From the NCBI RefSeq assembly GCF_003201355.1, contig NZ_QICL01000002.1, positions 62,001-126,000 of the forward strand: a DNA stretch of 64,000 nucleotides, written 5' to 3'. Every line of letters begins with the position of its first letter. Positions within the stretch are counted from its first letter, which is position 1. A program made the translations under genes and the position numbers. The DNA comes from Indolivaga alginatilytica. GTDB taxonomy: Bacteria > Bacteroidota > Bacteroidia > Bacteroidales > Dysgonomonadaceae. The notes below the pieces were generated by a model. It had not been told where the DNA came from, ran no database searches, and saw only the letters and a program-made list of their open reading frames with translations. This document shows positions 9,903-63,946 of this stretch, piece after piece.

Positions 9903-9957
9903 ATAACTATCAGTTGTACTTATGCCAGCCAAAGTTATAAACAGGTCTGAGACCTTA
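9903..9957 (+). repeat. Dispersed palindromic repeat, copy a
   Basis: One copy of the window-wide AAGGTC-nnn-GACCTT family. It reads CAGTTGTACTTATGCCAGCC, then an A/T-rich linker, then AGGTCTGAGACCTTA. The palindrome ends 17 nt before the start codon of the zinc peptidase. Confidence 0.8.
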
Positions 9958-9974
9958 ATTAAAATAATAAGATT

Positions 9975-10655
9975 ATGTTTTACGGATGGATTTTATTTGG
10001 TATAATTGCTTTAGGAGGTTGGATTGTATCGGCTACTTTGCAAAGCAAATTTAAAAAATACTCAAAAGTGCCATTAGATAGCGGTCTGACAGGTAGAGAT
10101 GTTGCATTGAAGATGTTACACGATAATGGAATATATGATGTGCAGGTTATTTCTACTCAGGGAATGCTGACGGATAATTACAATCCGGGCAATAAGACTG
10201 TGAATCTGAGTGAAGGTGTATACCATAGCAATAGTGTAGCGGCAGCAGCAGTTGCAGCTCACGAATGCGGTCATGCTGTACAGCACGCAAAAGCCTATGG
10301 ACCTTTGACATTAAGATCGGCTTTGGTGCCAACAGTTAGTTTTGCATCTAAATGGGTGATGTGGGTATTGCTGGCAGGTATTTTTATGATTAATACTTTT
10401 CCTATATTGATATGGATAGGTATAGGTTTGTTTGCAATGACTACAATCTTTAGTTTTGTAACATTACCTGTTGAAATTGATGCTAGTAATCGTGCATTAG
10501 TATGGCTTAATACTGCCGGTATTGTAAGAGATTCTAATAAGGATAAAGCGAAAGACGCTCTAAAATGGGCTGCATATACTTATGTTGTAGCTGCTTTAGG
10601 TTCTTTGGCAACTCTTATATATTATATCTTTATCGCACTGGGAAGCAGGAGATAA
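9975..10655 (+). CDS. Membrane zinc metallopeptidase (YugP-like, Zn_peptidase_2)
   Basis: Integral-membrane neutral zinc peptidase of the YugP/DUF2227-like group. It has an N-terminal membrane segment (residues 1-22), the zinc-binding HECGH at about residues 96-100 inside AAAAVAAHECGHAVQHAKAY, two or three further hydrophobic helices (about 118-165), the conserved EIDASNRAL segment near 172, and a last helix at 195-222. The 226-residue length is standard. The catalytic motif is intact, but the biological substrate is unknown for this family. It stands alone between purA, from which a repeat separates it, and a terminator. Confidence 0.92.
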   Translation: MFYGWILFGIIALGGWIVSATLQSKFKKYSKVPLDSGLTGRDVALKMLHDNGIYDVQVISTQGMLTDNYNPGNKTVNLSEGVYHSNSVAAAAVAAHECGHAVQHAKAYGPLTLRSALVPTVSFASKWVMWVLLAGIFMINTFPILIWIGIGLFAMTTIFSFVTLPVEIDASNRALVWLNTAGIVRDSNKDKAKDALKWAAYTYVVAALGSLATLIYYIFIALGSRR

Positions 10656-10676
10656 TCCTTATTCCCTCCAAAATAG

Positions 10677-10707
10677 AAAGAGTAACCTTATAGTTACTCT
10701 TTTTTTA
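10677..10707 (+). terminator. Intrinsic terminator after zinc peptidase
   Basis: Stem AAAGAGTAAC / GTTACTCTTT (10 bp) with loop CTTATA, followed by a T-run. Confidence 0.85.
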
Positions 10708-10764
10708 CATTCTCTAAAAAAACAAGCTTGTAACTCGTAACTAATTACTTGTAACTGATTAATC

Positions 10765-11883
10765 ATGAAGTATCTTTTTTTTATCGTTTTCCTTTCGCTT
10801 TTTTTAGCAGGTAATTATTATGTTTTTTACAGGGCTTGGACTGTAATTCCCTTAAATGCCATAACCCGTTCGTTGCTGATCGGGATAGCTGTGATACTGG
10901 TTGGGTCTATATTTCTTCTATTTCTGGCCGGTGAACATTTTCCGGTTTCAGTGACTTCTGTTTTATATACAATCGGAACCTCTTGGCTTTTTATATTTCT
11001 TTACTTTTTCATATTCAATTTGCTAACCGATTTGATCCGTGCATCCCGTCTTGTGCCAAGAGATACGCTGAATCAATATACAAAGGACAATTGGTTGAGC
11101 TTCGGTCTTACGGTAGGCTTTATCGGTTTGCTGATGCTATGCGGATACCTGAAATACCGGATAAAAGAACGTGTAGATTTACCTATTGAGATAACAAAGA
11201 ATATAGGTGACGGAGATTCTCTGACCATAGTAGCTCTCAGTGATATGCACCTCGGTTATGGAATCGGGAAAAGAGAACTTCAACAATGGGTGGAACTTAT
11301 TAATAAAGAGAATCCTGATATTGTATTGATTGCAGGAGATATTATAGATAGTAGCCTAAGGCCTTTGATAGCTCAGAATATGTCGGAGGACTTGAGGAAG
11401 ATAAAATCGAAATATGGAGTATATACCGTTATGGGCAACCATGAATATATAAGCGGGGCTGCGGCATCTGCCAAATTTATAGAAGAATCAGGCATTAAAC
11501 TAATCAGAGATTCTGCTGTTTTAATTGATAGTATGTTCTATGTGGTAGGGCGCGATGATAAATCGAACCCAAACCGTAAGCCTCTTGCCATGTTGACCGA
11601 TTCATTGGATAAGTCGAAACCGATTATTTTATTGGATCATCAACCCTATAATCTGGAAGAAGCCGAAAATAATGGAGTGGACATTCAATTTTCGGGGCAT
11701 ACTCATCGTGGACAGATATGGCCTATTTCGTTAATAACAGATATGATCTACGAAGATTCGTATGGCTATCTGAAGAAAGGGAATACAAATGTATATGTAA
11801 GTTCGGGAATGGGTCTTTGGGGTGGAAAGTTCCGCATCGGTACTCAGTCCGAATATGCAGTAATTAAAATGAAAACGAAATGA
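10765..11883 (+). CDS. Membrane metallophosphoesterase, first of a tandem pair
   Basis: Calcineurin-like phosphoesterase anchored by an N-terminal membrane domain. Residues 1-130 hold about four hydrophobic segments; the catalytic domain follows with every metal-binding motif present: DMHLGYG (about 160), AGDIID (about 191), GNHEY (about 223), LDHQPYN and the final SGHTHRGQ (about 310). This is the YkuE/YaeI-like layout; some relatives cleave UDP-diacylglucosamine or other phosphoesters, but the substrate here is unknown. The stop overlaps the start of the next gene (ATGA), which encodes a paralogue, so the two are translationally coupled tandem duplicates. Confidence 0.92.
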   Translation: MKYLFFIVFLSLFLAGNYYVFYRAWTVIPLNAITRSLLIGIAVILVGSIFLLFLAGEHFPVSVTSVLYTIGTSWLFIFLYFFIFNLLTDLIRASRLVPRDTLNQYTKDNWLSFGLTVGFIGLLMLCGYLKYRIKERVDLPIEITKNIGDGDSLTIVALSDMHLGYGIGKRELQQWVELINKENPDIVLIAGDIIDSSLRPLIAQNMSEDLRKIKSKYGVYTVMGNHEYISGAAASAKFIEESGIKLIRDSAVLIDSMFYVVGRDDKSNPNRKPLAMLTDSLDKSKPIILLDHQPYNLEEAENNGVDIQFSGHTHRGQIWPISLITDMIYEDSYGYLKKGNTNVYVSSGMGLWGGKFRIGTQSEYAVIKMKTK

Positions 11884-13007
11884 AAGTTTTCTTATTTCAA
11901 GCACTTATAGTGCATCTCATATTTAATGTATATGTATTTGTTCGGGGGTGGCAGGTTTTACCAAAGAAGAACGCGTATAGAATACCTTATGCTTTATTGT
12001 TTATAATAGAGCTTATAGTGTATTTGACAGGACTTATTTTCAATGTCAACTTACCGGCTACAATTCTAAAACCGATTTTATTGGTTGGTACATGGTGGAT
12101 GGTACTTATCGGATATACAACAGCCCTGTTACTTATTTATGATTTTATTCAATTTCAGGGACGGTGGTTCGATCCGATACGAAAACTGAATTTGCAAAAA
12201 ATCGGATTAAAAAGAATATTCCTTGTGATATCGCTGGTTGTTGTTATTTCCTCAATGAGCTATGGTCATTACCGCTTTTGGCATCCTGTTGTAACAGAAA
12301 TGGATTTGACTGTCAATAAAAAAGCAGATGGACTTAAAAATCTTCGGGTAGTGATGGTTGCAGATATTCATGCAGGTCATCTGATTGACAAGGGTGTCTT
12401 AAGCATGTATGTGGATAAGATTATGGAGCAAAAGCCTGATGTTATTCTTATAGTCGGCGATATTATAGATTACGACCTGCCCCCATTAATAGATCAGAAA
12501 ATGGATGAAGAGTTTCGTCGATTGAAAGCTCCTTATGGAGTGTATGCGTCTACGGGGAATCATGAATACCGACTGAACGGTGAAGAAAAAATAGCATGGT
12601 TAGCATCGGAAACGGGCATGACTATGTTGAGAGATACTGCTATAAAGGTAGCCGACAAATTCTATATTGTAGGTAGAGAGGACGATCATGCTGAAAACAG
12701 AAAATCGCTACCCGATATTATGGAGCACGTAGATAAACAGCTGCCTGTAATTGTAATGAATCATGAACCCAAAAGACTATCCGAGGAATCTTCCGAGCAA
12801 GCCGATCTGGCTGTTTACGGGCATACACATAACGGACAGTTGTTCCCCTATAATTTAATTATGAGTATGATATATGAAGTAGGACATGGGTATAAAAAGA
12901 AAGACAATACACATGTTTATGTCACTTCGGGATTAGGTCTTGCAGGACCTCAATACCGCATAGGTACTATTTCGGAGATAGTGGTCTTAAATCTGCATTT
13001 CGATTGA
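11880..13007 (+). CDS. Membrane metallophosphoesterase, second of a tandem pair
   Basis: Paralogue of the preceding gene, starting within its stop codon (ATGA overlap). It has the same plan: about four N-terminal membrane segments in residues 1-130, then a phosphoesterase domain with DIHAGH (about 161), VGDIID (about 193), GNHEY (about 226), NHEPKR and YGHTHNGQ (about 313). All metal ligands are kept in both copies, which have diverged considerably outside the motifs, so both are probably active and specialised. A copy of the dispersed palindromic repeat follows 12 bases after the stop. Confidence 0.92.
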   Translation: MKVFLFQALIVHLIFNVYVFVRGWQVLPKKNAYRIPYALLFIIELIVYLTGLIFNVNLPATILKPILLVGTWWMVLIGYTTALLLIYDFIQFQGRWFDPIRKLNLQKIGLKRIFLVISLVVVISSMSYGHYRFWHPVVTEMDLTVNKKADGLKNLRVVMVADIHAGHLIDKGVLSMYVDKIMEQKPDVILIVGDIIDYDLPPLIDQKMDEEFRRLKAPYGVYASTGNHEYRLNGEEKIAWLASETGMTMLRDTAIKVADKFYIVGREDDHAENRKSLPDIMEHVDKQLPVIVMNHEPKRLSEESSEQADLAVYGHTHNGQLFPYNLIMSMIYEVGHGYKKKDNTHVYVTSGLGLAGPQYRIGTISEIVVLNLHFD

Positions 13008-13019
13008 TCTATCTTGAAA

Positions 13020-13099
13020 TAAGGTCGCAGACCTTTTTATTGCTTTGGCAAGCATAGCAACCAGAGACAGTTATACTGATAAAATTTCGCATTAAATAT
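13020..13099 (-). repeat. Dispersed palindromic repeat, copy b (left arm of inverted pair)
   Basis: On the plus strand it reads TAAGGTCGCAGACC followed by TTTTTATTGCTTTGGCAAGC, so in this orientation it resembles a 6-bp hairpin plus T-run just past the phosphoesterase stop. Its 79 bases are the inverted counterpart of 13530-13608 with four mismatches by eye. Confidence 0.88.
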
Positions 13100-13109
13100 T
13101 TAACGCTAC

Positions 13110-13508
13110 TTAGGTAGCGGATACGGGCATTAATACAAAAAATAGCTGCTCCGCCTCAAAAGAAATACGTAAATATCCGTAGTCGGTTATCCATCTGTCG
13201 ATTTCGTGATTATAGGGATGCGTTTGGTCACAATATCTGATGTAATGCCCTATATCAGACAGGTTATCTAAAAGCAAATAGGCAATCTGGCATTTATTTT
13301 CGCTATCCATAGAACATGTTAATGTTGCATTTTTTAGTTGTATCTCGATTCTTGTGTGCCATTCCGACTTATTGAAGTAACGGCTAATGCAATGTTCGTA
13401 TGTGGAAAAGCTTTCTTCGATCGATTCCAAAGAACAATTCAGCACACTCTTTCCATATTTCAACAGACCGGAGAAATAAGTATAGGGAGATTCTTTTAAT
13501 GTGGTCAT
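13110..13508 (-). CDS. Small protein of unknown function, bracketed by inverted repeats
   Basis: A 132-residue soluble protein that I do not recognise. It has no signal peptide or membrane helix. A central strand-rich block (IEIQLKNATLTCSMDSENKC, then AYLLLDNLSDIGHYIRYC) resembles the end of the neighbouring 79-residue protein, so the two are diverged paralogues. The start is ATG at 13506-13508, 21 bases from the right-hand repeat; the stop is 10 bases from the left-hand one. The gene therefore fills nearly all the space between two 79-bp inverted repeats, like a cassette. The reading frame is intact and codon use looks normal, so expression is plausible but unproved. Confidence 0.6.
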   Translation of the reverse strand: MTTLKESPYTYFSGLLKYGKSVLNCSLESIEESFSTYEHCISRYFNKSEWHTRIEIQLKNATLTCSMDSENKCQIAYLLLDNLSDIGHYIRYCDQTHPYNHEIDRWITDYGYLRISFEAEQLFFVLMPVSAT

Positions 13509-13529
13509 AATTGTTTTAAGTAATGTTTC

Positions 13530-13609
13530 ATATTTAATGCGATATTTTATCAGTATAACTATCTCTGGTTGTTATGCCTGCCAAAGCAATAAAAAGGTCT
13601 GCGACCTTA
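13530..13609 (+). repeat. Dispersed palindromic repeat, copy c (right arm of inverted pair)
   Basis: It contains ATATTTAATGCG, CAGTATAACTATCTCTGGTT, GCCAAAGCAATAAAAAGG and TCTGCGACCTTA. It is the best preserved copy together with 13020-13099. The TTA end lies 2 bases from the stop codon of the 79-residue gene on the minus strand. Confidence 0.88.
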
Positions 13610-13611
13610 AA

Positions 13612-13851
13612 TTATACATCCGTAAATATATATGCTTCCGTACAGATATCGTTTTCGATAATACAACTCAATATTGAAGTTTCAAATCTGATCTCTACCA
13701 ATAATGTCTCATTGCCTTTATTTACATAGGGTAGAGCCTTATAATCCTGATGTTTTGCGGTTATACTATCGAAAGTTTTACCTACATATTCAGGTATACT
13801 CTGGCATTCAGGCTGTGTCGGTGAAAGAATAGTATTCAATAGGTTTGTCAT
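13612..13851 (-). CDS. Small protein of unknown function, paralogue of the 132-residue gene
   Basis: A 79-residue protein without a recognisable family. Its last third (EIRFETSILSCIIENDICTE, then AYIF) aligns with the centre of the 132-residue neighbour (EIQLKNATLTCSMDSENKC, then AYLL). It stops where the dispersed repeat begins, and the C-terminal 50 or so residues of the paralogue are missing. The gene may thus have been cut short by insertion of the repeat. ATG at 13849-13851. It could still be a functional short protein; the shared motif supports a real coding origin. Confidence 0.5.
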   Translation of the reverse strand: MTNLLNTILSPTQPECQSIPEYVGKTFDSITAKHQDYKALPYVNKGNETLLVEIRFETSILSCIIENDICTEAYIFTDV

Positions 13852-14823: not shown

Positions 14824-14901
14824 ACAGATTATCTTTCATTTTCGCATAACTCGCTTGGGCTTCGCCTACTCCAAGCTTATAACCAATTGTTGGAGATTAG
14901 T

Positions 14902-15426
14902 TACCGATTATCATTATTAATGCCAGTCATTATTTGGATTATCTGTAATATTTTACTGACGCACCCTCTCGGGTTTGTCTTTCATTTTGCCTTGATGCAA
15001 AACGAAACAAAAGATCAAGCCTGAGCCTTTTGCCCGACCCGATAAGTGTTTGAAAGCGAAAACAAAAAACTACTTTCGACTTTGATTACTTTTTGTTTTT
15101 TACGCTTTCCTCCCACATCGGGTACCCCGTGCAACCGCCAAGGTCGGAGAGCCTGACGGGCGTAAGCAAAGCCGACGTTTACTTCGGGGGTGAGGCATCC
15201 GTTCAACGAAGCAGTCGAAAAGAATAAAATACAAAAAGTCCGACAGGACGGCTTATTTTATTCCGACGGCAAGTTGTTAACGGATCACCACCGTAAGTGG
15301 TCGGCAAAGACTTTTTGGTTCCTTTTGCGGCTTTGGGCAAAAGGAACACAAGCAATCTTTGATTGCGCGTAGTATAAATAACTTAAAAGAGCGTTTTATA
15401 TAATCCAACTACCGATTATCATTATT
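14902..15426. repeat. GC-richer repeat element between 17-bp direct repeats
   Basis: TACCGATTATCATTATT occurs exactly at 14902-14918 and 15410-15426. Between them lies sequence richer in G and C than its surroundings, with imperfect inverted ends (CAAAAGATC...CCTTTTGCCC at about 15008-15033 against GGGCAAAAGG...CAATCTTTG at about 15335-15362). The block containing AAAGACTTTTTGGTTCCTTT is of a kind that recurs in Bacteroidetes genomes and is often over-annotated as tiny ORFs. It carries no transposase. Confidence 0.6.
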
Positions 15427-15488
15427 TATCTTTAATAAGACAGAAGGTACACCGAAAGGAAAAAGGTAACAATATAAAACGATCGGAA

Positions 15489-15843: not shown

Positions 15844-15873
15844 GTAGGGGCAGACCTATGTGTCAGCCCGATA
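15844..15873 (+). repeat. Half copy of GTAGGGGC palindromic repeat
   Basis: GTAGGGGCAGACCTATGTGT followed by CAGCCCGATA corresponds to one half of the complete palindrome at 24716-24773. Confidence 0.6.
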
Positions 15874-15950
15874 CAGACGAGTGAACAAAGTACACAAGAA
15901 CAAATTAATATAATAAACAAGAGGTATTTATCTCAATACTATCCGGCACA

Positions 15951-16002
15951 AGCTGATGGTATTGTTTATATTTACCAATGTAATAAATAGGTCTGAGACC
16001 TT
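15951..16002 (+). repeat. Dispersed palindromic repeat, copy d
   Basis: Diverged left part (TTTACCAATGTAATAAAT) and intact palindrome AGGTCTGAGACCTT. It ends 34 nt before the GH92 start codon. Confidence 0.75.
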
Positions 16003-16036: not shown

Positions 16037-18337
16037 ATGGTAACAAAAAAAATCATGAGAAACGCTTTGGGGCTGAGTCTTTGTACGGGTTTGATGCTCG
16101 GTGCAATTGCTTGTAGCGACAAAGGGCAGAAAGATGCTGCACTCGAAAATCTGACTCAATACGTTGATCCTTACATCGGAACGGGTGATCATGGACACGT
16201 GTTTATGGGCGCAAACGTTCCTTTCGGATTGGTTCAACTAGGGCCGACACAACATAGTCAGGGATGGGATTGGTGTTCGGGATATCATATTTCCGATTCT
16301 ACTATTATCGGCTTCGGACATATGCACCTTAGCGGAACAGGTATCGGCGATTTAGGCGATATCTCGTTTATGCCTGCAACAGGAGATGTTAAATTAACTA
16401 GAGGTACGTTACCAGACGAATCTACGGGAATTTACTCTTACTTTTCTCACGATAAAGAAACTGCAAAAGCAGGATATTACTCTGTCCACTTAGACAGATT
16501 TAATATTGATGTGGAATTGACAGCTACTAAACGGGTAGGTTTCCATAGATATACATTCCCCGAATCAACAGACCCTAAAGTTATCATCGACTTAGAGCAT
16601 GGTATCGGATGGGATATGCCCGTTGACGGTGCTTTGGTTCAGGAAAACGACAGCGTAATCTCGGGTTACCGCTTTTCTAAAGGATGGGCAAAAGATCAAC
16701 GCATTTACTTTACGGCAATATTTTCAAAACCAATATCTAAGTTTACGATCTTAGATACTACCGCTGTATACGAAGGATCAAAAACACCTATGCGTAAAAT
16801 CTATGGCCAGGTATTCTTTGATGGTACAAAAGCCGGAGAAAAAGTATACGCCAAAGTGGCTCTGTCTCCTGTAAGTGTTGAAAACGCAAAGAAGAATATG
16901 GAAGCTGAGCTTGCCGGATGGGATTTCGACCAGACAGTTGCAAATGCAGATAAGGCATGGAACGAAGAACTGAATAAGATAGTAGTGAAATCGGATAGCA
17001 AAACCGATCTTCGTAACTTCTATACAGCTATGTACCACTCTATGGTAGCTCCATCGGTATTTGCTGATGTGAATGGCGACTATTGGGGAACAGACAAACA
17101 GGTTCATACAAAGAATGACTTTACAAATTATACAACCTTCTCATTGTGGGATACATATCGTGCGGCTCAACCGTTGCAAACGATTATTCATCCTGAATTG
17201 GCAACTGATGTAGCTAAGACTTTCTTGCAAATCTTTAAACAACAAGGTAAACTACCTGTATGGCACTTGATGTCTAATGAAACCGACTGTATGGTCGGTA
17301 ATCCGGGCATTATTGTAATGGGAGATTTGTTCCTTAAAGGTTTTGTTGCTGATGCGGATAAAGAAGCAGCTTTCGAAGCAATGAAAACTTCTGCCATGTT
17401 AGACGAAAGAGGTCTTAACTGGTTGAAAGAATATGGTTATATCCCTTACGATAAAGAAGAAACTTTCGAATCGGTAGCTAAAGGTCTGGAGTATGCTATT
17501 GCAGACTGGTGTGTGGCTCAGGTAGCAAAAGAAATGGGTAAGACTGAAGATTATAATTACTTCATCAAAAGAAGCGAGTCTTATAAACATTACTTCGACA
17601 AGGAAACTCAGTTTATGAGAGGTCTTTCTTCTACAGGAACATTCCGTGTACCGTTCAATCCATTACATTCTACTCACCGTGAGGATGATTATACAGAAGG
17701 TAACGCTTGGCAATATACTTGGTTGGTTCCTCATGATGTAAATGGTCTTATCGGTTTATTTGGAAGCGAAGAAGCTTTCGTAACCAAGCTGGATTCATTG
17801 TTTACTATTCAAGGTGATCTGGGTGCAGAAGCTTCTCCTGACATTAGTGGTCTTATCGGACAATATGCACATGGAAATGAGCCTAGCCACCATGTTCTAT
17901 ATCTATACCCATTTGTGGGGCAACAATGGAAAACGGCTGAAAAGGTACGTGAAGTATTGACAACTCTTTATTTCGATAAACCAGCCGGTATCAGCGGAAA
18001 CGAAGATGTTGGCCAGATGTCATCATGGTATATCCTTTCGGCATTAGGATTCTATCCAATGGCTCCTGCCGGCGGCGACTATATATTTGGTAGCCCGCAG
18101 ATGAAAGAAGCAACCATAAAACTAGGCGGTGGCAAAACATTTACAGTGATTGCCAAGAACAATAATCCCGAGAATAAATACATCCAGAGTGCTAAGCTGA
18201 ATGGCAAACCTTATACTAAATCGTATATCAATCACAGAGATGTAATTGCAGGTGGTACTTTAGAGTTTGAAATGGGTGCTCAACCTTCAAAAACATTTGG
18301 AGTGGATAAAGCAGACAGACCTGTTTCGGTTAAATAA
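16037..18337 (+). CDS. GH92 alpha-mannosidase lipoprotein
   Basis: Calcium-dependent exo-alpha-mannosidase of glycoside hydrolase family 92, which trims alpha-linked mannose from N-glycans or yeast mannan. The signal peptide ends in a lipobox with Cys at residue 26 (LGAIAC). The mature protein opens with the family hallmark YVDPYIGTGDHGHVF, continues with FGHMHLSGTG, and has the catalytic-domain motifs EGNAWQYTW (about 554) and GNEDVGQMSSWYILSALGFY (about 654). The full 766 residues are present. An internal ATG at 16055 is an alternative start. It stands alone, without SusCD or other glycosidases, so it probably acts at the cell surface or in the periplasm as a single enzyme. Confidence 0.96.
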   Translation: MVTKKIMRNALGLSLCTGLMLGAIACSDKGQKDAALENLTQYVDPYIGTGDHGHVFMGANVPFGLVQLGPTQHSQGWDWCSGYHISDSTIIGFGHMHLSGTGIGDLGDISFMPATGDVKLTRGTLPDESTGIYSYFSHDKETAKAGYYSVHLDRFNIDVELTATKRVGFHRYTFPESTDPKVIIDLEHGIGWDMPVDGALVQENDSVISGYRFSKGWAKDQRIYFTAIFSKPISKFTILDTTAVYEGSKTPMRKIYGQVFFDGTKAGEKVYAKVALSPVSVENAKKNMEAELAGWDFDQTVANADKAWNEELNKIVVKSDSKTDLRNFYTAMYHSMVAPSVFADVNGDYWGTDKQVHTKNDFTNYTTFSLWDTYRAAQPLQTIIHPELATDVAKTFLQIFKQQGKLPVWHLMSNETDCMVGNPGIIVMGDLFLKGFVADADKEAAFEAMKTSAMLDERGLNWLKEYGYIPYDKEETFESVAKGLEYAIADWCVAQVAKEMGKTEDYNYFIKRSESYKHYFDKETQFMRGLSSTGTFRVPFNPLHSTHREDDYTEGNAWQYTWLVPHDVNGLIGLFGSEEAFVTKLDSLFTIQGDLGAEASPDISGLIGQYAHGNEPSHHVLYLYPFVGQQWKTAEKVREVLTTLYFDKPAGISGNEDVGQMSSWYILSALGFYPMAPAGGDYIFGSPQMKEATIKLGGGKTFTVIAKNNNPENKYIQSAKLNGKPYTKSYINHRDVIAGGTLEFEMGAQPSKTFGVDKADRPVSVK

Positions 18338-24715: not shown

Positions 24716-24773
24716 GTAGGGGCGAACCTATGTGTTCGCCCGATATTGGGCAGACACATAGATCTGCCCCTAC
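24716..24773. repeat. GTAGGGGC double-hairpin repeat
   Basis: Overall palindrome GTAGGGGC...GCCCCTAC enclosing two smaller hairpins, GGGCGAAC/GTTCGCCC and GGGCAGA/TCTGCCC. Repeats of this kind are scattered through many bacterial genomes. A half copy lies at 15844-15873. Confidence 0.75.
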
Positions 24774-27149: not shown

Positions 27150-27190
27150 AATATAAGTAAGTAATGGTAAATATCTATTGTTACATTTTA

Positions 27191-27250
27191 GAACTATAAC
27201 TGTCTCTCATTATTGTACTTACCGGAGCAATAAATAGGTCTGAGACCTTA
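27191..27250 (+). repeat. Dispersed palindromic repeat, copy e
   Basis: Well preserved: ACTATAACTGTCTCTCATTA, GCAATAAAT and AGGTCTGAGACCTTA. It lies in the divergent spacer between the thioredoxin-fold gene and the metal-receptor operon. Confidence 0.8.
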
Positions 27251-27802: not shown

Positions 27803-27877
27803 TTTTATTGTTTGTAAAGCAAGGTTTTGTTGTACGGGTAACTCGGTTATCTTGTGCAACTATTATTCCGTATTACA

Positions 27878-27928
27878 GCCAACTATGGTTATTTATACTG
27901 ACCAAAGCAATAAAAAGGTCTGAGACCT
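27878..27928 (+). repeat. Dispersed palindromic repeat, copy f
   Basis: It contains ACTGACCAAAGCAATAAAA and AGGTCTGAGACCT. It ends 21 nt before the TonB receptor start codon, inside the operon. Confidence 0.8.
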
Positions 27929-41530: not shown

Positions 41531-41670
41531 TAGTAAAAAACAAAAAGTTAACCTTTTTTTAACACTAAAAAGTGAACAATTTGTAACATTGTTACAATCT
41601 ATCTACTTGTCAATTAAGTGAGATGAAGTATCTGATGTGGTATTTCAAGGTAATAACGATTAATCGTTTT

Positions 41671-41706
41671 TTATTTACCAAATAAATAAAAAGATATGAG
41701 ACCTTA
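41671..41706 (+). repeat. Dispersed palindromic repeat, copy g (diverged)
   Basis: TTTACCAAATAAATAAAAAG then ATATGAGACCTTA. The palindrome is damaged on one side (GATATGAGACC). The final TTA is the stop codon (TAA) of the permease on the minus strand. Confidence 0.65.
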
Positions 41707-49663: not shown

Positions 49664-50920
49664 ATGTTTGATTTTGATTCATTAAGAGAGATTGGTGCCA
49701 CTATCAGTAAGAATAAACTCCGTACTTTTTTGACGGGCTTTTCTATTGCGTGGGGTATCTTCATGCTGATTGTATTGCTGGGTGCGGGCAATGGTTTGAA
49801 AAACGGGATAACTGCTAATTTTTCGAACCGGGCAAAAAATGCAGTAAGTGTTGGGACAGGATATGTTTCGATGCCTTACAAAGGTTTGCCGGTAGACCGA
49901 CAAGTTAAATTTGATAATAAGGACTATGACTTATTACGAAATAAAATCCCCGAAGTAGATTATGTATCGGCTCAGATAGAACGCAGATCAACTATTTCTT
50001 TTAATAAAGAATATGGTTCGTGGGGGATGAACGGAGTATATCCCGATGCTGCTTATATCGGTAACATCGATATGTCGACAGGAACGGGACGGTTTATCAA
50101 CCAGATAGATATGGATCAGAAACGAAAAGTAATCGTCATTAATACCGAGATGCAGGAAGTTCTTTTTAAAGGAGAAGATCCTTTGGGTAAGTATGTTACA
50201 GCAGATGGGATTGCTTATCAGGTGGTAGGTGTATATAAAGACGAAAGCGGACGTACGAATATTCCCTCTTTTGTTCCCTTCTCAACAGCTCAAAGCCTCT
50301 ATGGTAAAGGCTACAATGTGGATAGACTCGATTTTACAGTAAAAGGGATTAAGACGATGCCCGAGAATGAAGCTTTTATTAAAAGGTTGAGAGAGAAACT
50401 GGGAGCTTTGCATAATTTTGATCCCGAAGATAAATCGGCAATATGGATATGGAATACAGCAGAAGAGGCAGTTCAAACTGAGGCTATATTTGGCGGGATA
50501 ACCATGTTTATATGGGTTGTAGGTATTGCTTCGCTTATTGCAGGGATTGTAGGTGTCGGTAACATTATGCTTATAACCGTAAAAGAAAGAACCCGTGAGT
50601 TTGGAATCAGAAAAGCGATCGGAGCAAATCCGTATTCTATATTGAAGCTGGTATTATTGGAGTCGATAATTATAACTACTGCATTTGGATACATCGGAAT
50701 GGTAGTCGGCGTCGGGCTTACCGAATTGATAAGTGAAGGAATGAGGATAGCTCCTGCTTCGACGGAAGGAGGTCCCAGTGTCTTTAAAGACCCTACTGTC
50801 GACTTGGGTATTGTTTTAGCAGCCACCTTGGTTCTGATAGTATCGGGGGTGTTTGCAGGATATATTCCGGCTAAGAAAGCGGTAAGTATCAGTCCTATCG
50901 AAGCTATGCGTTCCGAATAA
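49664..50920 (+). CDS. MacB-like ABC permease, first copy
   Basis: A 418-residue permease: N-terminal helix (about residues 20-45, LTGFSIAWGIFMLIVLLGAG), periplasmic MacB-core domain to about 275, then three membrane helices (about 285-310, 330-360, 385-405) and the end GYIPAKKAVSISPIEAMRSE. Characteristic cytoplasmic loop: TVKERTREFGIRKAIGAN. It pairs with the next gene, a paralogue of the same length, so the exporter is probably a heterodimer. Its stop codon TAA coincides with the end of a dispersed repeat copy. Confidence 0.94.
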   Translation: MFDFDSLREIGATISKNKLRTFLTGFSIAWGIFMLIVLLGAGNGLKNGITANFSNRAKNAVSVGTGYVSMPYKGLPVDRQVKFDNKDYDLLRNKIPEVDYVSAQIERRSTISFNKEYGSWGMNGVYPDAAYIGNIDMSTGTGRFINQIDMDQKRKVIVINTEMQEVLFKGEDPLGKYVTADGIAYQVVGVYKDESGRTNIPSFVPFSTAQSLYGKGYNVDRLDFTVKGIKTMPENEAFIKRLREKLGALHNFDPEDKSAIWIWNTAEEAVQTEAIFGGITMFIWVVGIASLIAGIVGVGNIMLITVKERTREFGIRKAIGANPYSILKLVLLESIIITTAFGYIGMVVGVGLTELISEGMRIAPASTEGGPSVFKDPTVDLGIVLAATLVLIVSGVFAGYIPAKKAVSISPIEAMRSE

Positions 50921-50980
50921 GACCGCAGACGTTTTTTGCTTTCGAAGTATGGCAGTAATAGACAGATATAATACTAGTAG
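50918..50980 (-). repeat. Dispersed palindromic repeat, copy h (diverged)
   Basis: On the plus strand TAAGACCGCAGACG then TTTTTTGCTTTCGAAGTATG, aligning with copy b. The palindrome is broken (GACC instead of GGTC). The leading TAA is the stop codon of the first permease. Confidence 0.6.
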
Positions 50981-52295: not shown

Positions 52296-52332
52296 AAATA
52301 TACCGATACAGAAAAACAGGTCTGCGACCTTA
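52296..52332 (+). repeat. Dispersed palindromic repeat, copy i (short)
   Basis: ATACCGATACAGAAAAAC then AGGTCTGCGACCTTA. The left part is reduced, the palindrome is intact. It ends 27 nt before the adaptor start codon. Confidence 0.75.
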
Positions 52333-52359: not shown

Positions 52360-53514
52360 ATGGAAAGTAGCGCAAAAAAGAAAAGTCCTGTGAAGAAAAT
52401 CTTCAGTATAATTGGAGTAGTTCTTATAGCAGTTGTAGTTGTTGGTATTTTTGTTTTCCTGTGGAAAAAAAGCCAACCCAAAGAAGTTATCTATGAAATT
52501 GTAGAAGTTGTCGAGGGTGATATTGAGAATGCAACTGTTGCAACAGGAAAGGTTTCTCCCCGTGACGAAGTTCTTATCAAACCACAAATTGCAGGTATCA
52601 TAGAAACCGTTTTAAAGGAGGCAGGCGATTTTGTAAAAGCAGGCGAAGTAATTGCTACCATACAGGTTGTTCCCGAGTCTGCTCAGTTGAGTGGTGCCGA
52701 ATCGCAACTGAATATTGCAAAGATTAATTTGAATTTATCCAGTGCAGATTACAATCGTCAAAAACAATTATTCGACAAAGGAGTAATTGCTAAAGAGGAG
52801 ATGGATAAAGCTGAGGCAGATTACAAAAAGGCACAAGAAGATGCCGAGAATGCAAAAGATAATCTGGATATTATACGTACGGGAGTTTCTAAGAAAACGG
52901 CAAAATATAGTAATACTCAGATTCGTTCTACGATAGACGGTATGATTCTGGATATCCCTGTAAAAGTAGGTAACTCAGTAATCCAATCTAATAATTTCAA
53001 TGAAGGAACTACTATTGCTACAGTTGCAAACATGAGCGATATGATTTTTATCGGTAAGGTCGATGAAACAGAGGTAGGACGTATACATACCGGAATGCCT
53101 ATTAAATTGTCGATTGGAGCTATTGATAATAAGAAATTTGATGCATCGCTTGAGTATGTTGCACCTAAAGGTGTTGAAGAAAACGGAGCAATCCTTTTCG
53201 AGATTAAAGCAGCTGCCCAAATTACGGATACTATAAGTATACGTGCAGGTTACAGTGCTAATGCCCAGATTATTGTGGCTAATGCAAAAGGTGTATTAAC
53301 AGTGCCCGAGAGTACGGTGTCTTTCAGTAACGATTCTGCATTTGTCTATATCCTTAAAGAAGAAACTCCGAAACAAGTATTTGATAAACAATTTATAAAA
53401 GTAGGATTATCGAACGGTATCAATATCGAAGTTAAATCGGGGTTGACCAAAGGTCAGAAGATAAGAGGTAACGAAGTAGATGAGAAAGCACCTAAGCCCG
53501 AACAACCTAAGTAA
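52360..53514 (+). CDS. Periplasmic adaptor of tripartite exporter (HlyD/MacA type)
   Basis: A 384-residue membrane-fusion protein. N-terminal helix anchors it in the inner membrane (about residues 14-33, IIGVVLIAVVVVGIFVFLW). The biotinyl-lipoyl half-motifs (KPQIAGIIETVLKEAGDFVK and RSTIDGMILDIPVKVGN) flank a coiled-coil hairpin of about 65 residues (about 110-180), followed by beta-barrel and membrane-proximal domains and a Lys/Pro-rich tail. It bridges the two permeases and the TolC-like protein encoded on either side. The adaptor type matches MacA. The substrate of the pump is unknown. Confidence 0.94.
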   Translation: MESSAKKKSPVKKIFSIIGVVLIAVVVVGIFVFLWKKSQPKEVIYEIVEVVEGDIENATVATGKVSPRDEVLIKPQIAGIIETVLKEAGDFVKAGEVIATIQVVPESAQLSGAESQLNIAKINLNLSSADYNRQKQLFDKGVIAKEEMDKAEADYKKAQEDAENAKDNLDIIRTGVSKKTAKYSNTQIRSTIDGMILDIPVKVGNSVIQSNNFNEGTTIATVANMSDMIFIGKVDETEVGRIHTGMPIKLSIGAIDNKKFDASLEYVAPKGVEENGAILFEIKAAAQITDTISIRAGYSANAQIIVANAKGVLTVPESTVSFSNDSAFVYILKEETPKQVFDKQFIKVGLSNGINIEVKSGLTKGQKIRGNEVDEKAPKPEQPK

Positions 53515-53516
53515 CC

Positions 53517-53547
53517 GCTTTAAAGTAACAAAAAGGTCTTAGACCTT
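53517..53547 (+). repeat. Dispersed palindromic repeat, copy j (short)
   Basis: TTTAAAGTAACAAAA then AGGTCTTAGACCTTA, filling the spacer between the adaptor and the TolC-like gene. It ends 19 nt before the start codon. Confidence 0.75.
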
Positions 53548-53566: not shown

Positions 53567-54907
53567 ATGAAAAAATATATTATAGCTGTAAGTTGCCTAT
53601 TGTTGAGCTTTAGTATGCAAAGCCAATCGGCTTGGGATTTGAGGAAATGTATTGACTATGCCATTGAGCACAATATAGAAATAATGCAACAAGGTCTACA
53701 AGTTAAAGGAGCTGAAGTAGACTTGAATACTAGCAAGAACGCCCGATTGCCCGATTTGACGGGAGCTGCCGACCAAAGTTTTAGTTTTGGGCAGACTCGT
53801 AATGTAACTTCGGGTATTTACGAATCAAAAACAGCATCTATTACAAACTTCTCTTTTGCCACAAATACTCCTATTTTTACAGGATTCCGTATACAGAATC
53901 AAATAAAAGCAAATGAGTTGAGCTTATATGCTGCTATGGCAGGTTTGGATAAAGCTAAAGAAAATATGGAGTTGCAAATTACATCTTATTTTCTGGAGGT
54001 TCTATTTAAAAAAGAAATACTAAAGGTATTTAAAGAACAAGTATATCTAACCCAAAAGCAAGTTGATAGAACTTCTATTCTGGTAGAGACCGGTAAAGTT
54101 GCAGAGTCTCAGCTATATGATATAAAAGCCCAGCTTGCCAAAGACGAGCTGAATGTAACTACATCCGAAAATGATCTTCAACTCAGCTTGTTGAACTTAT
54201 CTCAGGCTCTAAATCTTCAGACTTTTGAAGGTTTTGATATTGAGGCTCCTAAATTGACCGAAACTTTAATGGTGGAGGATGTACTGGCAGGTTTAGTGAA
54301 GCCCGATGCGGTATACGATCAGGCGGTACAAACCAGACCTCATGTGAAAGAGGCTCAGTTTAATGTCGAAAGCTCTATGAAAGCCTTAAAAGTTGCTCAG
54401 GCGGGATATTGGCCAACACTTAGTTTTGGTGCATCTTATGGTAACGGGTTTAGCCATGTTTACGATTCATCAATTACTCAACTGTCTATTGGTAGTCAGC
54501 TGAGAGGCAATTATCGTATCGCTTTGGGTTTAAATTTAAATATTCCTATATTTGACAGGTTCGACACTCGCAATAAAGTACGTCAGGCTCGTTTGACTAT
54601 CGAAAATCAGCAGTTAATATTGGAGAATGTAAAACTGGCACTCTTTAAGGAAATACAGCAGGCATATCAGAATGCTACTGCGTCGCAAGCTAAGTTTATA
54701 TCCACAGAGAGAGCATACGAAGCTGCGGCAGAGTCATTCAAATATGCAGAGGAACGTTATCAGATAGGAAAAACCAGTGTGTTTGAGTATAATGAGGCCC
54801 AAACTAAGCTCATAACCACTAAATCGGAACAGATACAGGCTAAATATGACTTTGTATTCAGAAGTAAAATATTAGACTTCTATCAGGGAAGAGAGATCAC
54901 TATGTAG
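53567..54907 (+). CDS. TolC-family outer membrane efflux protein
   Basis: A 446-residue outer-membrane channel, last gene of the exporter operon. Signal peptide ends MQSQS (about residue 21), then WDLRKCIDYAIEHNIEIMQQ, the usual start of OEP domains. Two structural repeats of long helices follow, with beta strands LPDLTGAADQSFSFG and the equivalent YWPTLSFGASYGNGFS, and the end KYDFVFRSKILDFYQG. The 446 residues suit trimeric TolC-like channels. It completes an ATPase, two permeases, adaptor and outer-membrane channel set that could export a peptide, lipid or antibiotic across both membranes. Confidence 0.95.
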   Translation: MKKYIIAVSCLLLSFSMQSQSAWDLRKCIDYAIEHNIEIMQQGLQVKGAEVDLNTSKNARLPDLTGAADQSFSFGQTRNVTSGIYESKTASITNFSFATNTPIFTGFRIQNQIKANELSLYAAMAGLDKAKENMELQITSYFLEVLFKKEILKVFKEQVYLTQKQVDRTSILVETGKVAESQLYDIKAQLAKDELNVTTSENDLQLSLLNLSQALNLQTFEGFDIEAPKLTETLMVEDVLAGLVKPDAVYDQAVQTRPHVKEAQFNVESSMKALKVAQAGYWPTLSFGASYGNGFSHVYDSSITQLSIGSQLRGNYRIALGLNLNIPIFDRFDTRNKVRQARLTIENQQLILENVKLALFKEIQQAYQNATASQAKFISTERAYEAAAESFKYAEERYQIGKTSVFEYNEAQTKLITTKSEQIQAKYDFVFRSKILDFYQGREITM

Positions 54908-58508: not shown

Positions 58509-58624
58509 CTTTATATATCGGTATGTCTTTGTCTATTAAGTAATGCAAAATGTTTATTGCTATATTTAAAACCAGTCATCAGTTTATAGGATTTGCCTAT
58601 TCGTAACTTGTCTGTTTACGACTT

Positions 58625-58680
58625 GTAACAGTTTGATTATGATTTTACTTGCCAAAGAAATAAGTAGGTTTACGACCTTA
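58625..58680 (+). repeat. Dispersed palindromic repeat, copy k (diverged)
   Basis: GATTTTACTTGCCAAAGAAA, then TAAGT, then AGGTTTACGACCTTA. The palindrome has one mismatch. The last three bases TTA are the stop codon (TAA) of manC on the minus strand. Confidence 0.7.
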
Positions 58681-59760
58681 AATATAATTATCGCCGTATT
58701 TAAGTTTGATGTCAGCTACAAATTGTTTGATGCGTTGTTCTTGATCTTTCTGACAAATTAGAAGGATGTCATCTACTTCTGCAACGATGTAGTTATTCAA
58801 GCCCTGAATAACAGCCAATTTTCCATCGGGCAAAGCTACAATATTCTCTGAACTGTCATAAAATAGAGTTTCACATTTTAAGGAAGCATTTGCGTCTTTG
58901 TCTTTATCTGAGATATCGTGTAAGGAACCCCATGTACCAAGATCAGACCATCCGAAATCTGCTATTATAACACAAACGTTATTAGCTTTTTCCATTATTC
59001 CATAATCAATAGAAATACTTGGACAATAAGAATATTGCTCTTTTATAAAAGCTTGTTCTTTGTCTGTTGTATAAATATCCTTTCCTTGATTAAAGATTGT
59101 GGCAACCTCTGATAAATTATCATTGAATGCTTTTATTATTGTCTTTACACTCCAAATGAAAAGGCCTGAATTCCAAAGGAATTCGCCACTTTCGTAAAAT
59201 ATTTTGGCTAAATCAAGATTCGGTTTTTCTGTAAAAACCTTAACTCTGTTAATATCGCCAACAGTCTCCTCGTCAATTTGTATATATCCATATCCGGTTT
59301 CGGGTCTATTCGGCTTGATACCTAATGTTAAAAGAATTTCATGGTTATCCACAAAGCCTAGTGCCTTGTTTATAACAGCTGCAAATTCATCTTCTTTTAA
59401 TATAAGATGGTCGGAAGGAGCTACTACAATATTAGCATTGGGGTTTATCGAGTTTATATGATAGCTTGCATAAGCGATACAAGGGGCTGTGTTGCGTCGA
59501 AGCGGTTCTAATAGTATCTGGCTGGGAGATAACTCAGGTACTTCCTGCATCGTAAGCTCGGCATAACTCTCATTAGTTACAATAAATATATTTTCGATTG
59601 GCAGAATCTTCTTGAACCGATCTACTGTCATCTGCAGAAGAGAACGGCCTGTACCGAAGAAATCAAGAAATTGTTTAGGACGAGCTTCGCGGCTAAAAGG
59701 CCAAAAACGGCTGCCAATACCGCCACTCATAATTACACAATAACTATTTTTATTGTCCAT
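58678..59760 (-). CDS. manC: Mannose-1-phosphate guanylyltransferase
   Basis: Makes GDP-mannose from GTP and mannose 1-phosphate, the donor for mannose and fucose in glycans. The nucleotidyltransferase pyrophosphorylase signature is MSGGIGSRFWPFSREARPKQ, followed by LLEPLRRNTAPCIAYASYHI, VVAPSDHLI, the GYGYIQIDEE segment, FTEKPNLDLAK, LWNSGLFIWS and the C-terminal IADFGWSDLGTWGSLHDI. The 360 residues correspond to the single-domain form, without the fused phosphomannose isomerase of E. coli ManC. The stop codon falls at the end of a dispersed repeat. Confidence 0.95.
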   Translation of the reverse strand: MDNKNSYCVIMSGGIGSRFWPFSREARPKQFLDFFGTGRSLLQMTVDRFKKILPIENIFIVTNESYAELTMQEVPELSPSQILLEPLRRNTAPCIAYASYHINSINPNANIVVAPSDHLILKEDEFAAVINKALGFVDNHEILLTLGIKPNRPETGYGYIQIDEETVGDINRVKVFTEKPNLDLAKIFYESGEFLWNSGLFIWSVKTIIKAFNDNLSEVATIFNQGKDIYTTDKEQAFIKEQYSYCPSISIDYGIMEKANNVCVIIADFGWSDLGTWGSLHDISDKDKDANASLKCETLFYDSSENIVALPDGKLAVIQGLNNYIVAEVDDILLICQKDQEQRIKQFVADIKLKYGDNYI

Positions 59761-60535: not shown

Positions 60536-60612
60536 TTTATCAGAATGTTTTTAATAAAAAACAATATTAATGTAAATAAATGATATTTCAATCTTGGCGG
60601 CGGTCTTTTGAT

Positions 60613-60700
60613 TTACGGTTTCGGAATCCACTCTCTCAATTCATAAATTAAGTCTGAATCTTCAAAAGATTGGCTCGAGAATGGAACGGTTAAAGGTGCT
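60613..60700 (-). repeat. ELREWIPKP coding-remnant repeat, copy 1
   Basis: TTTACGGTTTCGGAATCCAC and the next 65 or so bases match 61443-61530 at roughly three quarters of positions. Read on the minus strand both end in the same peptide ELREWIPKP and stop. It lies just past the 224-residue gene. Confidence 0.55.
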
Positions 60701-61410: not shown

Positions 61411-61442
61411 AGAAAATAGTATTTAGTGTACACAAATATACA

Positions 61443-61535
61443 ATTTACGGTTTCGGAATCCACTCCCTCAACTCATTAATAAAGTCTAAAGCTTCAAGAA
61501 ATCGGTTAGAGAATAGAATAGTTAAAGCTTTGTAT
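61443..61535 (-). repeat. ELREWIPKP coding-remnant repeat, copy 2
   Basis: Starts TTTACGGTTTCGGAATCCAC like copy 1. On the minus strand it keeps a frame reading ALTILFSNRFLEALDFINEL, then REWIPKP and stop, longer than in copy 1, but I see no intact gene around it. It lies between two secreted-protein genes. Confidence 0.55.
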
Positions 61536-61638
61536 GCAATTTGTTTACGGGCAAATATGGTAGGTTCTCGTTTTGGCGGGGTGCAAAAAAGGTGTAAAAA
61601 CTGACAGTTGGTTCAAAAACGCACTTAATCCGATAAAC

Positions 61639-62820: not shown

Positions 62821-62845
62821 ATTTATTTAAATTTCAGACTTTAAT

Positions 62846-63724
62846 TTATATCATCTCCCCATATTCTTTTATTCTCTGTTCACAAATACGTTTAGTAATA
62901 TCCCGAAGAAGTTCCACTTTGACCAACAAAGCATCAATATCCCCCTTCGTAACCAAGAACTTAGGATTATACCGAGCCTCTACATAAGCGTCTTTTAAGA
63001 GAGTAAACAACCGCTTCTCCTCCGCTGTATGCTGAGGGAAGACCTTTGCCAAATCTTCAGAGTAATGCTTAACCGACGAAGACAGTTTAGCTAAATTATG
63101 TTGCTTATTACTTCTCAACGTAAAAGACAAACGGATAGCATGATAATAGTTTTCAGAGGCTTGGTGAAGTTGAAAAGATGACATCTTATAATCTTCATAT
63201 TCATAAGCTGATTTTGCTAGTCTAAAGAAGCTATTCGCATTTTGAAACTTGTCATCAAAGTACTCTTGTGCCTGTAGCTGTATCTCCCTAAAATTTAATT
63301 TTCTTCTTCTGGCAAGTTTAAATTTACCGCTGTCATAAAGGATTATCCCCTCCTGCTTTAACTGCGTATAGAAATACCTGCCCTCCTCCAGCTGATTGTT
63401 AAGCGTCTTAATATCCTCGTTGATAAACTGAACAGGCGTTTGCGTTTCAGGGTTTTTGTAATACAGATTATCTATATTATCCAGAGCATGCGAAGCTTTC
63501 TTATTGAGTATACCGCTTGTAACAACCAGTATATCATAATCGGACATAAACAAAGTAGGTATACCGAACTCTACACGCTCATCAAATTCCACATATTTCC
63601 CTGTAGCATAACTACCGTAAAGAATAATCATTTCGGCTTGTGGCAGGCGCTCCCTTATCTTGCTGACAAGAAAATATAAATCTTCCTGTTTACGCTTGGG
63701 CAGATGTGATATGGATTTTTTCAT
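62846..63724 (-). CDS. Fused nucleotidyltransferase (MNT) and HEPN protein
   Basis: A 292-residue two-domain protein. The N-terminal MNT-type nucleotidyltransferase carries ILYGSYATGKYVE and the metal pair SDYDILVV (about residues 34-65), as in minimal antitoxin nucleotidyltransferases. The C-terminal HEPN domain (about 140-280) is all helical (FFRLAKSAYEYEDYKMSSFQ) and keeps the RNase motif R-x4-H in LRSNKQHNL. In two-gene MNT-HEPN systems the nucleotidyltransferase neutralises the HEPN RNase; here both are one chain. Start ATG 63724 (MKKSISH) suits the -7 element at 63746; 8 codons further upstream are open. Such fusions occur in other Bacteroidales. Confidence 0.88.
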   Translation of the reverse strand: MKKSISHLPKRKQEDLYFLVSKIRERLPQAEMIILYGSYATGKYVEFDERVEFGIPTLFMSDYDILVVTSGILNKKASHALDNIDNLYYKNPETQTPVQFINEDIKTLNNQLEEGRYFYTQLKQEGIILYDSGKFKLARRRKLNFREIQLQAQEYFDDKFQNANSFFRLAKSAYEYEDYKMSSFQLHQASENYYHAIRLSFTLRSNKQHNLAKLSSSVKHYSEDLAKVFPQHTAEEKRLFTLLKDAYVEARYNPKFLVTKGDIDALLVKVELLRDITKRICEQRIKEYGEMI

Positions 63725-63745
63725 GAAAAAGTATTTTGTTACGAG

Positions 63746-63753
63746 CAAAAATA
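63746..63753 (-). promoter_or_regulatory. Candidate -7 element for MNT-HEPN gene
   Basis: TATTTTTG on the minus strand, about 22 nt before the ATG at 63724. A small palindrome GCAAAC/GTTTGC (63765-63780) lies just upstream and could be an operator. Confidence 0.45.
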
Positions 63754-63889
63754 GTTAATTATTAGCAAACAAAAGTTTGCAGCGACCCTATAATTCCATA
63801 TAAATATAAAGCAGATATAAGTAAATGAAAGTATTTGATGTCATATATCTTTAAGTAAACGAGTTGGCAGGTAAACAAGGAAATGTTGA

Positions 63890-63946
63890 CTGCTCACTGT
63901 TAACTGATTTATACTTAACCAAGTAATAAAAAGGTCTTAGACCTTA
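63890..63946 (+). repeat. Dispersed palindromic repeat, copy l
   Basis: CTGTTAACTGATTTATACTT, AACCAAGTAATAAAA and AGGTCTTAGACCTTA. It points to the right edge, where a TATATTTG (63965-63972) may begin a plus-strand gene outside the window. Confidence 0.75.

Follow-up and report, generated by a model that had tools for sequence, protein, structure and literature searches.

The genome of Indolivaga alginatilytica (Bacteroidales, Dysgonomonadaceae) carries a high-copy family of 93-nt repeats that are very probably copies of a non-autonomous mobile element, similar to miniature inverted-repeat transposable elements (MITEs), which inserts at TA dinucleotides with duplication of the TA. The family was studied starting from a window of 64,000 nt (assembly GCF_003201355.1, contig NZ_QICL01000002.1, positions 62,001 to 126,000, forward strand), for which a preliminary description, made from the letters alone, had listed 12 copies of a short palindrome next to genes. 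We report that the palindrome belongs to a unit with two ends, that loci occupied here are present as empty sites with a single TA in sister species, that the copies are nearly absent from coding sequence and that the same ends occur on other interiors in other genomes.

Repeat unit, copy number and insertion at TA

The unit reads TA-AGTAA...GGTCTNNGACCT-TA, and the consensus of its 93-nt profile is TAAGTAATTGTAAATATTTAATGCTATATTTTATAATTATAACTATCTATGGTTGTTATACTTGCCAAAGCAATAAAAAGGTCTGAGACCTTA. The palindrome of the preliminary description is the right end of this unit, and the GCCAAAGCAATAAAAAGG part of the repeat described there sits immediately interior to it in the consensus. Between the duplicated TAs the element would in all likelihood span ~89 nt, TA-[AGTAA ... 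CCAAAGCAATAAAAA-GGTCTNNGACCT]-TA.

A search of the genome (5,120,703 bases, 73 contigs) with AATAAAAAGGTCTNNGACCTTAA at ≤3 mismatches yielded 279 forward and 302 reverse places, 581 in all, against one place for the reversed pattern used as a control; hence the palindromic repeat family is real and far exceeds chance. The genome-wide search had been proposed in the preliminary description together with a profile, which was made here from 98 copies and applied to stretches adding up to 1,622,209 bases of the genome, the window included. It matched 322 times at E ≤ 1, and in the reversed sequence not at all (twice at E ≤ 10). By extrapolation, the whole genome may hold ~1000 copies if old ones are counted. 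The 283 profile matches at E ≤ 0.1 were used for the analysis of context. The right end is present in 259 of them and both ends in 141; a recognised left end is missing in 118 of the 259 right-end copies, and the left end is also less conserved.

Within the window, the pattern AAGGTCNNNGACCTT occurs at 12 places at ≤2 mismatches, where 1.85 are expected from shuffled sequences and the largest number in any shuffle was 4. Eleven of these places are copies from the preliminary list, and the twelfth, at 15140, is a chance match (AAGGTCGGAGAGCCT) produced by an unrelated repeat of ~530 bp. The copy at 50918 is too degenerate for the pattern and is a weak profile match (E 0.086); the copy at 52296 was found by the pattern and missed by the profile at E 0.1. 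The listed repeats are real, but the palindrome is only one end of a longer unit.

The hairpins at the right end are mostly of the AAGGTC/GACCTT type, and some carry compensated changes, e.g. AGCTC/GAGCT or AGTTC/GAACT. A clear excess of such changes was seen at one pair only, in 13 copies versus 1.0 expected, and these 13 double changes may go back to two or three events that were copied many times. RNAalifold on the 141 copies with both ends yielded no conserved fold of the whole element, a weak negative as the program also missed the terminal hairpin. At gathering scores, the only Rfam match in the window was a tRNA, with no family at the copies, and at E ≤ 1 the sole match between 9 and 29 kb was a miRNA model at 24.7 kb, away from the copies.

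The insertion at TA is seen most directly at the copy at 9.9 kb, where four sister species have the empty site ATTAATTAAAAT and I. alginatilytica has ATTA-AGTAAC...GACCT-TAATTAAAAT; a fifth sister species (62% complete) is without this locus. For the comparison with relatives 80 kb from each of four were used, and then further sequence of two of them, G005 and G001. A test with joined flanks comprised 181 two-edged elements (150 from this genome, 18 from G001, 9 from G005 and 4 from G004) and was run against stretches of the other species that cover part of the loci. A match spanning the junction was obtained for 34 of the 181 elements, and for 16 of these it was clean, that is, gap-free within 11 nt. 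At least one relative has TA at the junction for 11 of the 16 clean elements (17 of 23 clean comparisons), and for 10 of 11 when the clean element has TA on both of its own borders.

The composition of the borders was evaluated for 58 full-length copies, taken from 150 places in 857 kb. TA is found at the left border in 50, at the right border in 52 and at both in 46 of them. The neighbouring bases are symmetric, with T at position −3 in 36 and A at position +3 in 33 of the 58 copies and with A or T in 52 to 54 at the two positions beyond these, left and right, giving roughly WWTTAAWW. A 4-bp duplication of TTAA was ruled out on account of an empty site reading GTATT and of the variable bases at −3 and +3; with variation beyond the TA, it is TA alone that is duplicated. 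Empty sites in the sister species, together with the duplicated TA, therefore lead to the assignment to MITE-like non-autonomous elements.

The most similar pairs of copies reach 97.9% identity. Two copies in contig C1 (164276–164444 and 540640–540807) resemble each other in an internal insert of ~67 nt that is bordered by a short duplication. Since this 67-nt insert is common to both, and a different hairpin body is common to others, altered forms were copied as well. Pairs identical up to 97.9% and subfamilies with a common insert or hairpin body argue for repeated copying.

Gene borders and stop codons

None of the 283 copies lies wholly within a called gene, compared with 70% of the TTAA sites; when pattern places were considered instead of profile matches, 1 of 150 was inside a called gene, the calls in both cases coming from a home-made gene finder that missed small genes. 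The preliminary description had stated that the TTAAGG end is the side next to the coding sequence in all ten copies assigned to a gene. The distances to starts and stops quoted there are about right, and the statement holds when measured from the palindrome, but in this way the body of ~75 nt is counted as a gap. A measurement based on the palindrome, in which the hairpin side was nearer to a gene in 106 of 147 cases, was withdrawn once both ends were measured. When distances were taken from the two true ends of the 141 full-length copies, 76 have the hairpin end and 64 the other end closer to a gene, with one tie (p = 0.40 for 76 of 141). Hence, a general polarity toward genes fails for full-length copies.

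A polarity does exist where the edge of the element coincides with a stop codon. Exactly on a stop are 26 hairpin ends and 5 body ends, with one copy having both; if each copy is counted once, the hairpin points toward the gene in 26 versus 4 copies (26/30, p = 6e-5). The TA of a stop codon served as the target in 30 of the 141 full copies, versus 6.8% of the intergenic TTAA sites. The set of stop-edge copies, full or with the right end only, comprises 56, of which 8 could be compared with a relative. These 8 gave 12 comparisons; in 11 the relative has its stop at the identical codon, and the alignment of the exception is gapped. A further 8 copies have the stop at the second TAA of TAAGTAA on their body side, and one more has it slightly deeper, a pattern suggestive of insertion slightly within the reading frame.

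These positions would follow from the ends of the element. Each end starts with an A after the target TA, so that a TAA or TAG stop hit by an insertion would become or stay TAA on either side; the stop survives because the terminal A of the element completes TA to TAA. The gene survives an insertion into its stop, and therefore many copies overlap stop codons. The excess of hairpin ends at stops would most simply result from selection among insertions, and the selected feature could be the hairpin with its T-run straight after the stop, which would provide a new, possibly weak, 3′ end. What speaks against this selection step is the state of the hairpins, in which the five core pairs are intact in 64% of the 56 stop-edge copies versus 88% (70/80) of the copies ≤60 nt from a start (p 0.0017).

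The orientation at stops might also be read with the hairpins as transcription terminators, maintained by selection because they stop RNA synthesis past stop codons; the opposite strand's T-run would then supply the U-tract. In the direction leading out of the gene, the consensus has a 6-bp hairpin (−5.5 kcal/mol) with TTTTTATT after it, and the 26 of 30 stop-edge copies have the orientation that a terminator needs. In addition, a base that preserves the T-run is kept in 37 of 44 copies near stops versus 18 of 37 near starts, in one of 95 columns and without correction. We consider terminators an unlikely explanation, however, because the hairpin folds weakly (an equally good fold is reached by 25 of 200 shuffles), hairpins at stops are less intact than those near starts, and a purely selected terminator would not yield empty sites with a TA duplicated on occupation. 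Hairpin ends face starts about as often as stops (67 and 74 of the 141 full copies). Hairpin plus T-run are seen only when reading from the hairpin end. Where the residual gap between co-directional genes is ≤50 nt, terminator-oriented copies (16/65) are not excluded relative to the other orientation (13/45). Copies may possibly act as the 'miniature terminator' of the preliminary description. The start-facing copies at 11–40 nt could in turn be 5′ leader hairpins that affect mRNA stability or translation. The number of hairpin ends at ≤40 nt from a start (31/67) and the intactness of the hairpins ≤60 nt from a start, the highest with all five pairs in 70 of 80, would agree with such a role. 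It is nevertheless very unlikely to account for the family, as the other end of the element is equally frequent at that distance (44/87, p = 0.63), TTAA sites themselves are common there (23–26% of intergenic sites) and 19 of 37 start-proximal copies have a change in the base ahead of AGGTC, the pairing partner of the outer T. A promoter scan used sigma-70 hexamers, which are unsuited to this phylum.

Mobilisation, distribution and closest known elements

A third alternative concerns the way of movement. The preliminary description had likened the palindromes to repetitive extragenic palindromes (REPs) and bacterial interspersed mosaic elements (BIMEs) and had suggested looking for a gene of the REP-associated tyrosine transposase (RAYT) type. 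If the repeats were REP/BIME elements moved by such a Y1 enzyme of the HUH class, or derivatives of IS200/IS605, the hairpin would be read in single-stranded DNA and insertion would occur 3′ of TTA without any duplication. The hairpin lies at one end directly ahead of the border TTA, its part of the element stands alone in many copies (the 118 of 259 without a recognised left end), and TA at both borders, taken by itself, cannot be distinguished from a target plus an element end. The genome also has one gene matching Y1_Tnp (L057 15931–16467, contig C1 ~535931–536467), which encodes 178 aa and appears RAYT-like by eye. This gene lies among repeated small genes and is flanked by GGGATTTGCAATCCC-like palindromes, a different repeat, with no copy of the element within 3 kb, and Y1_Tnp had no match in G004 and G005, two species rich in the element (465 and 246 copies). 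Single-strand transposons are expected to show a strong strand bias with GC skew, but the copies follow it in 160 of 283 cases (57%), similar to genes (721/1244). In addition, the flank preference is symmetric around the TA, which a single-strand target does not predict, and the consensus contains no GTAG or CGTC tag. This way of movement is thus highly improbable; RAYT was rejected as the mover on the missing Y1 gene in the two rich species and the isolated one here, and the likeness to REP/BIME is unsupported for a two-ended 93-nt unit with TA duplication.

For the MITE-like element, the symmetric TA target and the lack of a strong strand bias favour a DDE enzyme supplied in trans. Such a transposase would recognise the conserved ends, one of them a 6-bp hairpin, and would probably be of the DDE kind cutting at TA. 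Several results weigh against this reading as a whole. Terminal inverted repeats are nearly missing: the ends share TAAG, past which 10 of 20 bases are alike in the consensus (reached in 2.2% of shuffles, p 0.022), and the ends of the corresponding sequence type in G052, a genome of another family, agree in 7 of 20 beyond TAAG (41% of shuffles, p 0.41). Among the spanning matches in the joined-flank test, 18 of 34 fall short of clean, and TA is missing from the relative for 5 of the 16 that are clean, although 4 of these 5 lack TA on at least one of their own borders, too. Furthermore, neither 1.62 Mb of this genome nor 320 kb from relatives yielded an autonomous partner, the IS630-type domain DDE_3 is present in 0 of 6 genomes of the genus, and DDE_Tnp_1 gave one partial match near a contig edge here and none in G001, G003, G004 and G005.

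Autonomous copies were searched by pairing left-only with right-only matches. The pairings have inserts of ~62–86 nt, with three longer ones of 836, 2514 and 5976 nt. In the 836- and 2514-nt pairings the left end already has a closer partner, at 67 and 65 nt, respectively, and the open reading frames (ORFs) in the 2514- and 5976-nt stretches are ordinary-looking and none is transposase-like, as judged by eye without a family search. IS630 was rejected as the mover for the absence of DDE_3 from all 6 genus genomes. DDE_3 does occur in 4 of 7 other bearers of the element at E ≤ 0.001, in 3 of them above the cut-off of the family. A profile search at 12 DDE_3 loci gave a single weak left-end match (L110, E 0.68). 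No end motif was seen at L242 and L243, left ends are nearby at L114, L244 and L245, and at L246 a complete element lies some 100–200 nt from a broken DDE_3 piece; no DDE_3 locus examined has its gene bracketed by both element ends. At the DDE_Tnp_1 loci, the element profile had no match.

Five of the 6 genus genomes are rich in the 23-nt core (89 to 581 places), and the sixth, which is 62% complete, has 0 places. Two further genera of the family have few, with 4, 11, 7 and 0 places in the genomes of one (g6) and 21 in the other (g15). Outside these, the core occurs at 470 places in G052 and otherwise at 0 to 2 places per genome, which is the control level. The copies in G052 have the same ends and a different interior, and BLAST of the consensus gave no match among the 40 of 97 G052 candidates that were scored. 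The ends were therefore also searched alone, as TAAGTA, 55–85 bases of any kind and AGGTCNNAGACCTTA at zero mismatches. Of 393 genomes of the order, 12 contain this pattern, and the control matched once in total; the pattern counts are 486 in G052, 84 in G000, 60 in G195, 17 in G001, 16 in G119, 10 in G105, 7 in G260, 5 in G293, 1 in G208 and one each in three g6 genomes. The bearers belong to the Dysgonomonadaceae and six other families (f11, f17, f53, f62, f70, f84).

By eye, the interiors are of few kinds. Those of G195 partly resemble the interior found here, most of the printed ones from G052, G105, G208, G260 and G293 start with ACAAAAGTT-like sequence, and those of G119 are heterogeneous. 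In addition to the AGGTC hairpin, G052 has at loci including L192 and L209 a sibling hairpin, AGGCTCGAAGAGCC, which stands behind a similar GTAAGCAA sequence and is possibly a second subfamily. In a sample of 296 genomes from the phylum, which included 3 from the order, I. alginatilytica alone was positive (0 of 293 outside the order). Viral contigs gave 6 matches to the ends-only pattern, none element-like on inspection, and plasmids and phages gave none. The right end of the consensus was found in Dysgonomonas sp. 520 (Dysgonomonadaceae, Bacteroidales), with a flank corresponding to a locus of G019, which is of the same family as the window. It is conceivable, if rather doubtful, that all these repeats form one superfamily throughout the Bacteroidales, in which the ends (TAAGTA; AGGTC-NNN-GACCT hairpin at TA) would be kept, the interiors swapped, the hairpin read by the transposase and the whole spread as a mobile 'stop plus terminator' cassette, which would restore a stop codon that it lands on and at the same time provide it with a 3′ hairpin.

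Searches of the open-access literature gave no description of this element family. It is a new family among TA-inserting mini-elements, a kind that is broadly known, and its nearest known kinds are RUP and Correia for the insertion at TA and SPRITE for the short-ended, terminator-like repeat near gene ends. Correia elements use TA as well, and elements of this type have symmetric inverted repeats. Here, by contrast, only one of the two ends forms a hairpin by itself. Derivatives of IS630/Tc1-mariner duplicate a TA target, as observed here, and come with a resident DDE_3 transposase, for which the 6 genus genomes had no match. RUP of Streptococcus pneumoniae is a short non-autonomous intergenic repeat of 107 bp with 108 copies at TA that is thought to be moved in trans (PMC2229807). 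It agrees in its terminal inverted repeats with a resident IS630 (IS630-Spn1), whereas the ends here share little past TAAG and DDE_3 is missing from the 6 genus genomes; the copy number here is several-fold greater than that of RUP. The Correia elements or NEMIS of Neisseria and related bacterial MITEs are described there as 100–160 bp long with stem-loops at the RNA level, and are comparable as short elements with a stem-loop (PMC2229807).

SPRITE of S. pneumoniae has a tetranucleotide inverted repeat only (AAAA/TTTT), is terminator-like and enriched near 3′ ends of genes, and resembles the element in these short ends and in its location; it differs by 30 copies, an 18-bp duplex and no target duplication established there, compared with a duplication and a 6-bp hairpin here (PMC3049150). 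REPs are characterised in PMC3733652 by a GTAG or CGTC tag and have ends that can give flanking ORFs a TAG stop, so that high-copy intergenic palindromes and ends able to provide stops are common to both; the defined 93-nt unit, the TA duplication, the missing tag and the lack of Y1 in two rich species set the element apart. Within the phylum, MITEs on record are BrickBuilt and others of Porphyromonas gingivalis with ~10–20 copies (PMC4596501), and MITECca01 of Cardinium with the ends of an IS982-family element (PMC9769881), likewise non-autonomous repeats but of other sizes and copy numbers. The BrickBuilt end GAGACCTT, as printed there, has eight letters in common with the hairpin and is a lead only. 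We set the family apart as a variant because it has hardly any terminal inverted repeats, a hairpin at one end, and ends that are kept across families on differing interiors.

With this family, the Bacteroidales gain a high-copy mobile mini-element akin to Correia or RUP, the empty sites of which allow the rates of insertion and the effects on gene ends to be measured. Conserved ends on varied interiors and the lack of a matching transposase despite hundreds of copies pose a concrete search problem, e.g. for genes between TAAGTA and AGGTCNNNGACCTTA. The stop-restoring design is a natural experiment on how a hairpin straight after a stop is tolerated, and in annotation pipelines such repeats at gene ends are best treated as insertions.

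Copies in the window and neighbouring repeats

The copy at 9.9 kb, with empty sites in the four sister species, is a full-length element at 9869–9955 on the plus strand (profile 1–93, E 1e-11) between TA copies at 9867–9868 and 9956–9957, its hairpin end 19 nt ahead of the start of the gene at 9975–10655. Two further full-length elements, at 13022–13110 on the minus strand (profile 1–93, E 3e-23; hairpin end 14 nt past the stop of 11880–13007) and at 13519–13607 on the plus strand (profile 1–93, E 4e-23; hairpin a few nt from the stop of 13612–13851, minus strand), form a tail-to-tail pair around an ORF of 132 aa (13110–13508, minus strand), giving an inverted repeat of 93 nt with 91% identity. 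The small ORFs 13110–13508 and 13612–13851, both on the minus strand, resemble diverged paralogues of each other by eye; among ten neighbouring proteins compared with Pfam, eight belong to ordinary families and these two had no match.

At 15913–16001 on the plus strand lies an element with a degenerate left end (profile 8–92, E 3e-7), the hairpin being 35 nt ahead of the start of 16037–18337. The full-length element at 27160–27248 on the plus strand (profile 1–93, E 1e-19) has its left end ~10 nt from the start of 25992–27149 (minus strand) and showed no clean empty site in G005. It is followed by the right part of an element at 27863–27928, plus strand (profile 26–91, E 6e-10), with the hairpin 21 nt ahead of the start of 27950–30160. 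The full-length element at 41617–41704 on the plus strand (profile 2–93, E 4e-7) lies exactly in the stop codon of 41704–42933 (minus strand); its last base completes the stop, and G005 has a clean empty site with the same stop codon.

Two partial copies are located at stops that have identical positions in G005: the degenerate right part at 50920–50979 on the minus strand (profile 32–93, the weak match mentioned above), with the hairpin at the stop of 49664–50920 (G005 position C2 112919), and the right part at 58616–58678 on the plus strand (profile 29–93, E 3e-5), with the hairpin at the stop of 58678–59760, minus strand (C2 120678). On the plus strand, a solo hairpin without a recognised body (52317–52331; pattern with 1 mismatch) lies 28 nt ahead of the start of 52360–53514, and a right end only (53521–53546; profile 66–93, E 0.009) lies 20 nt ahead of the start of 53567–54907. 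The last copy, at 63820–63944 on the plus strand (profile 2–93, E 8e-6), has an enlarged or rearranged body of ~125 nt, and its hairpin side is distant from called genes.

Other repeats occur beside the element. The ~530 bp repeat, at ~14880–15440 of the window with estimated limits, is 88–93% alike at no fewer than 10 places in the 1.62 Mb, in contigs C1, C2, C5, C6 and C7, and several of its copies directly adjoin a 93-nt element. The palindromic repeat GTAGGGGCAGACCTATGTGTC... is present at 15844–15873 and 24744–24773 of the window and at several other loci such as L014, and in several copies of the element it takes the place of the mid-body, resulting in chimeric elements. Finally, a direct repeat of 85 nt with 84% identity is found at 60611–60695 and 61443–61527 of the window.

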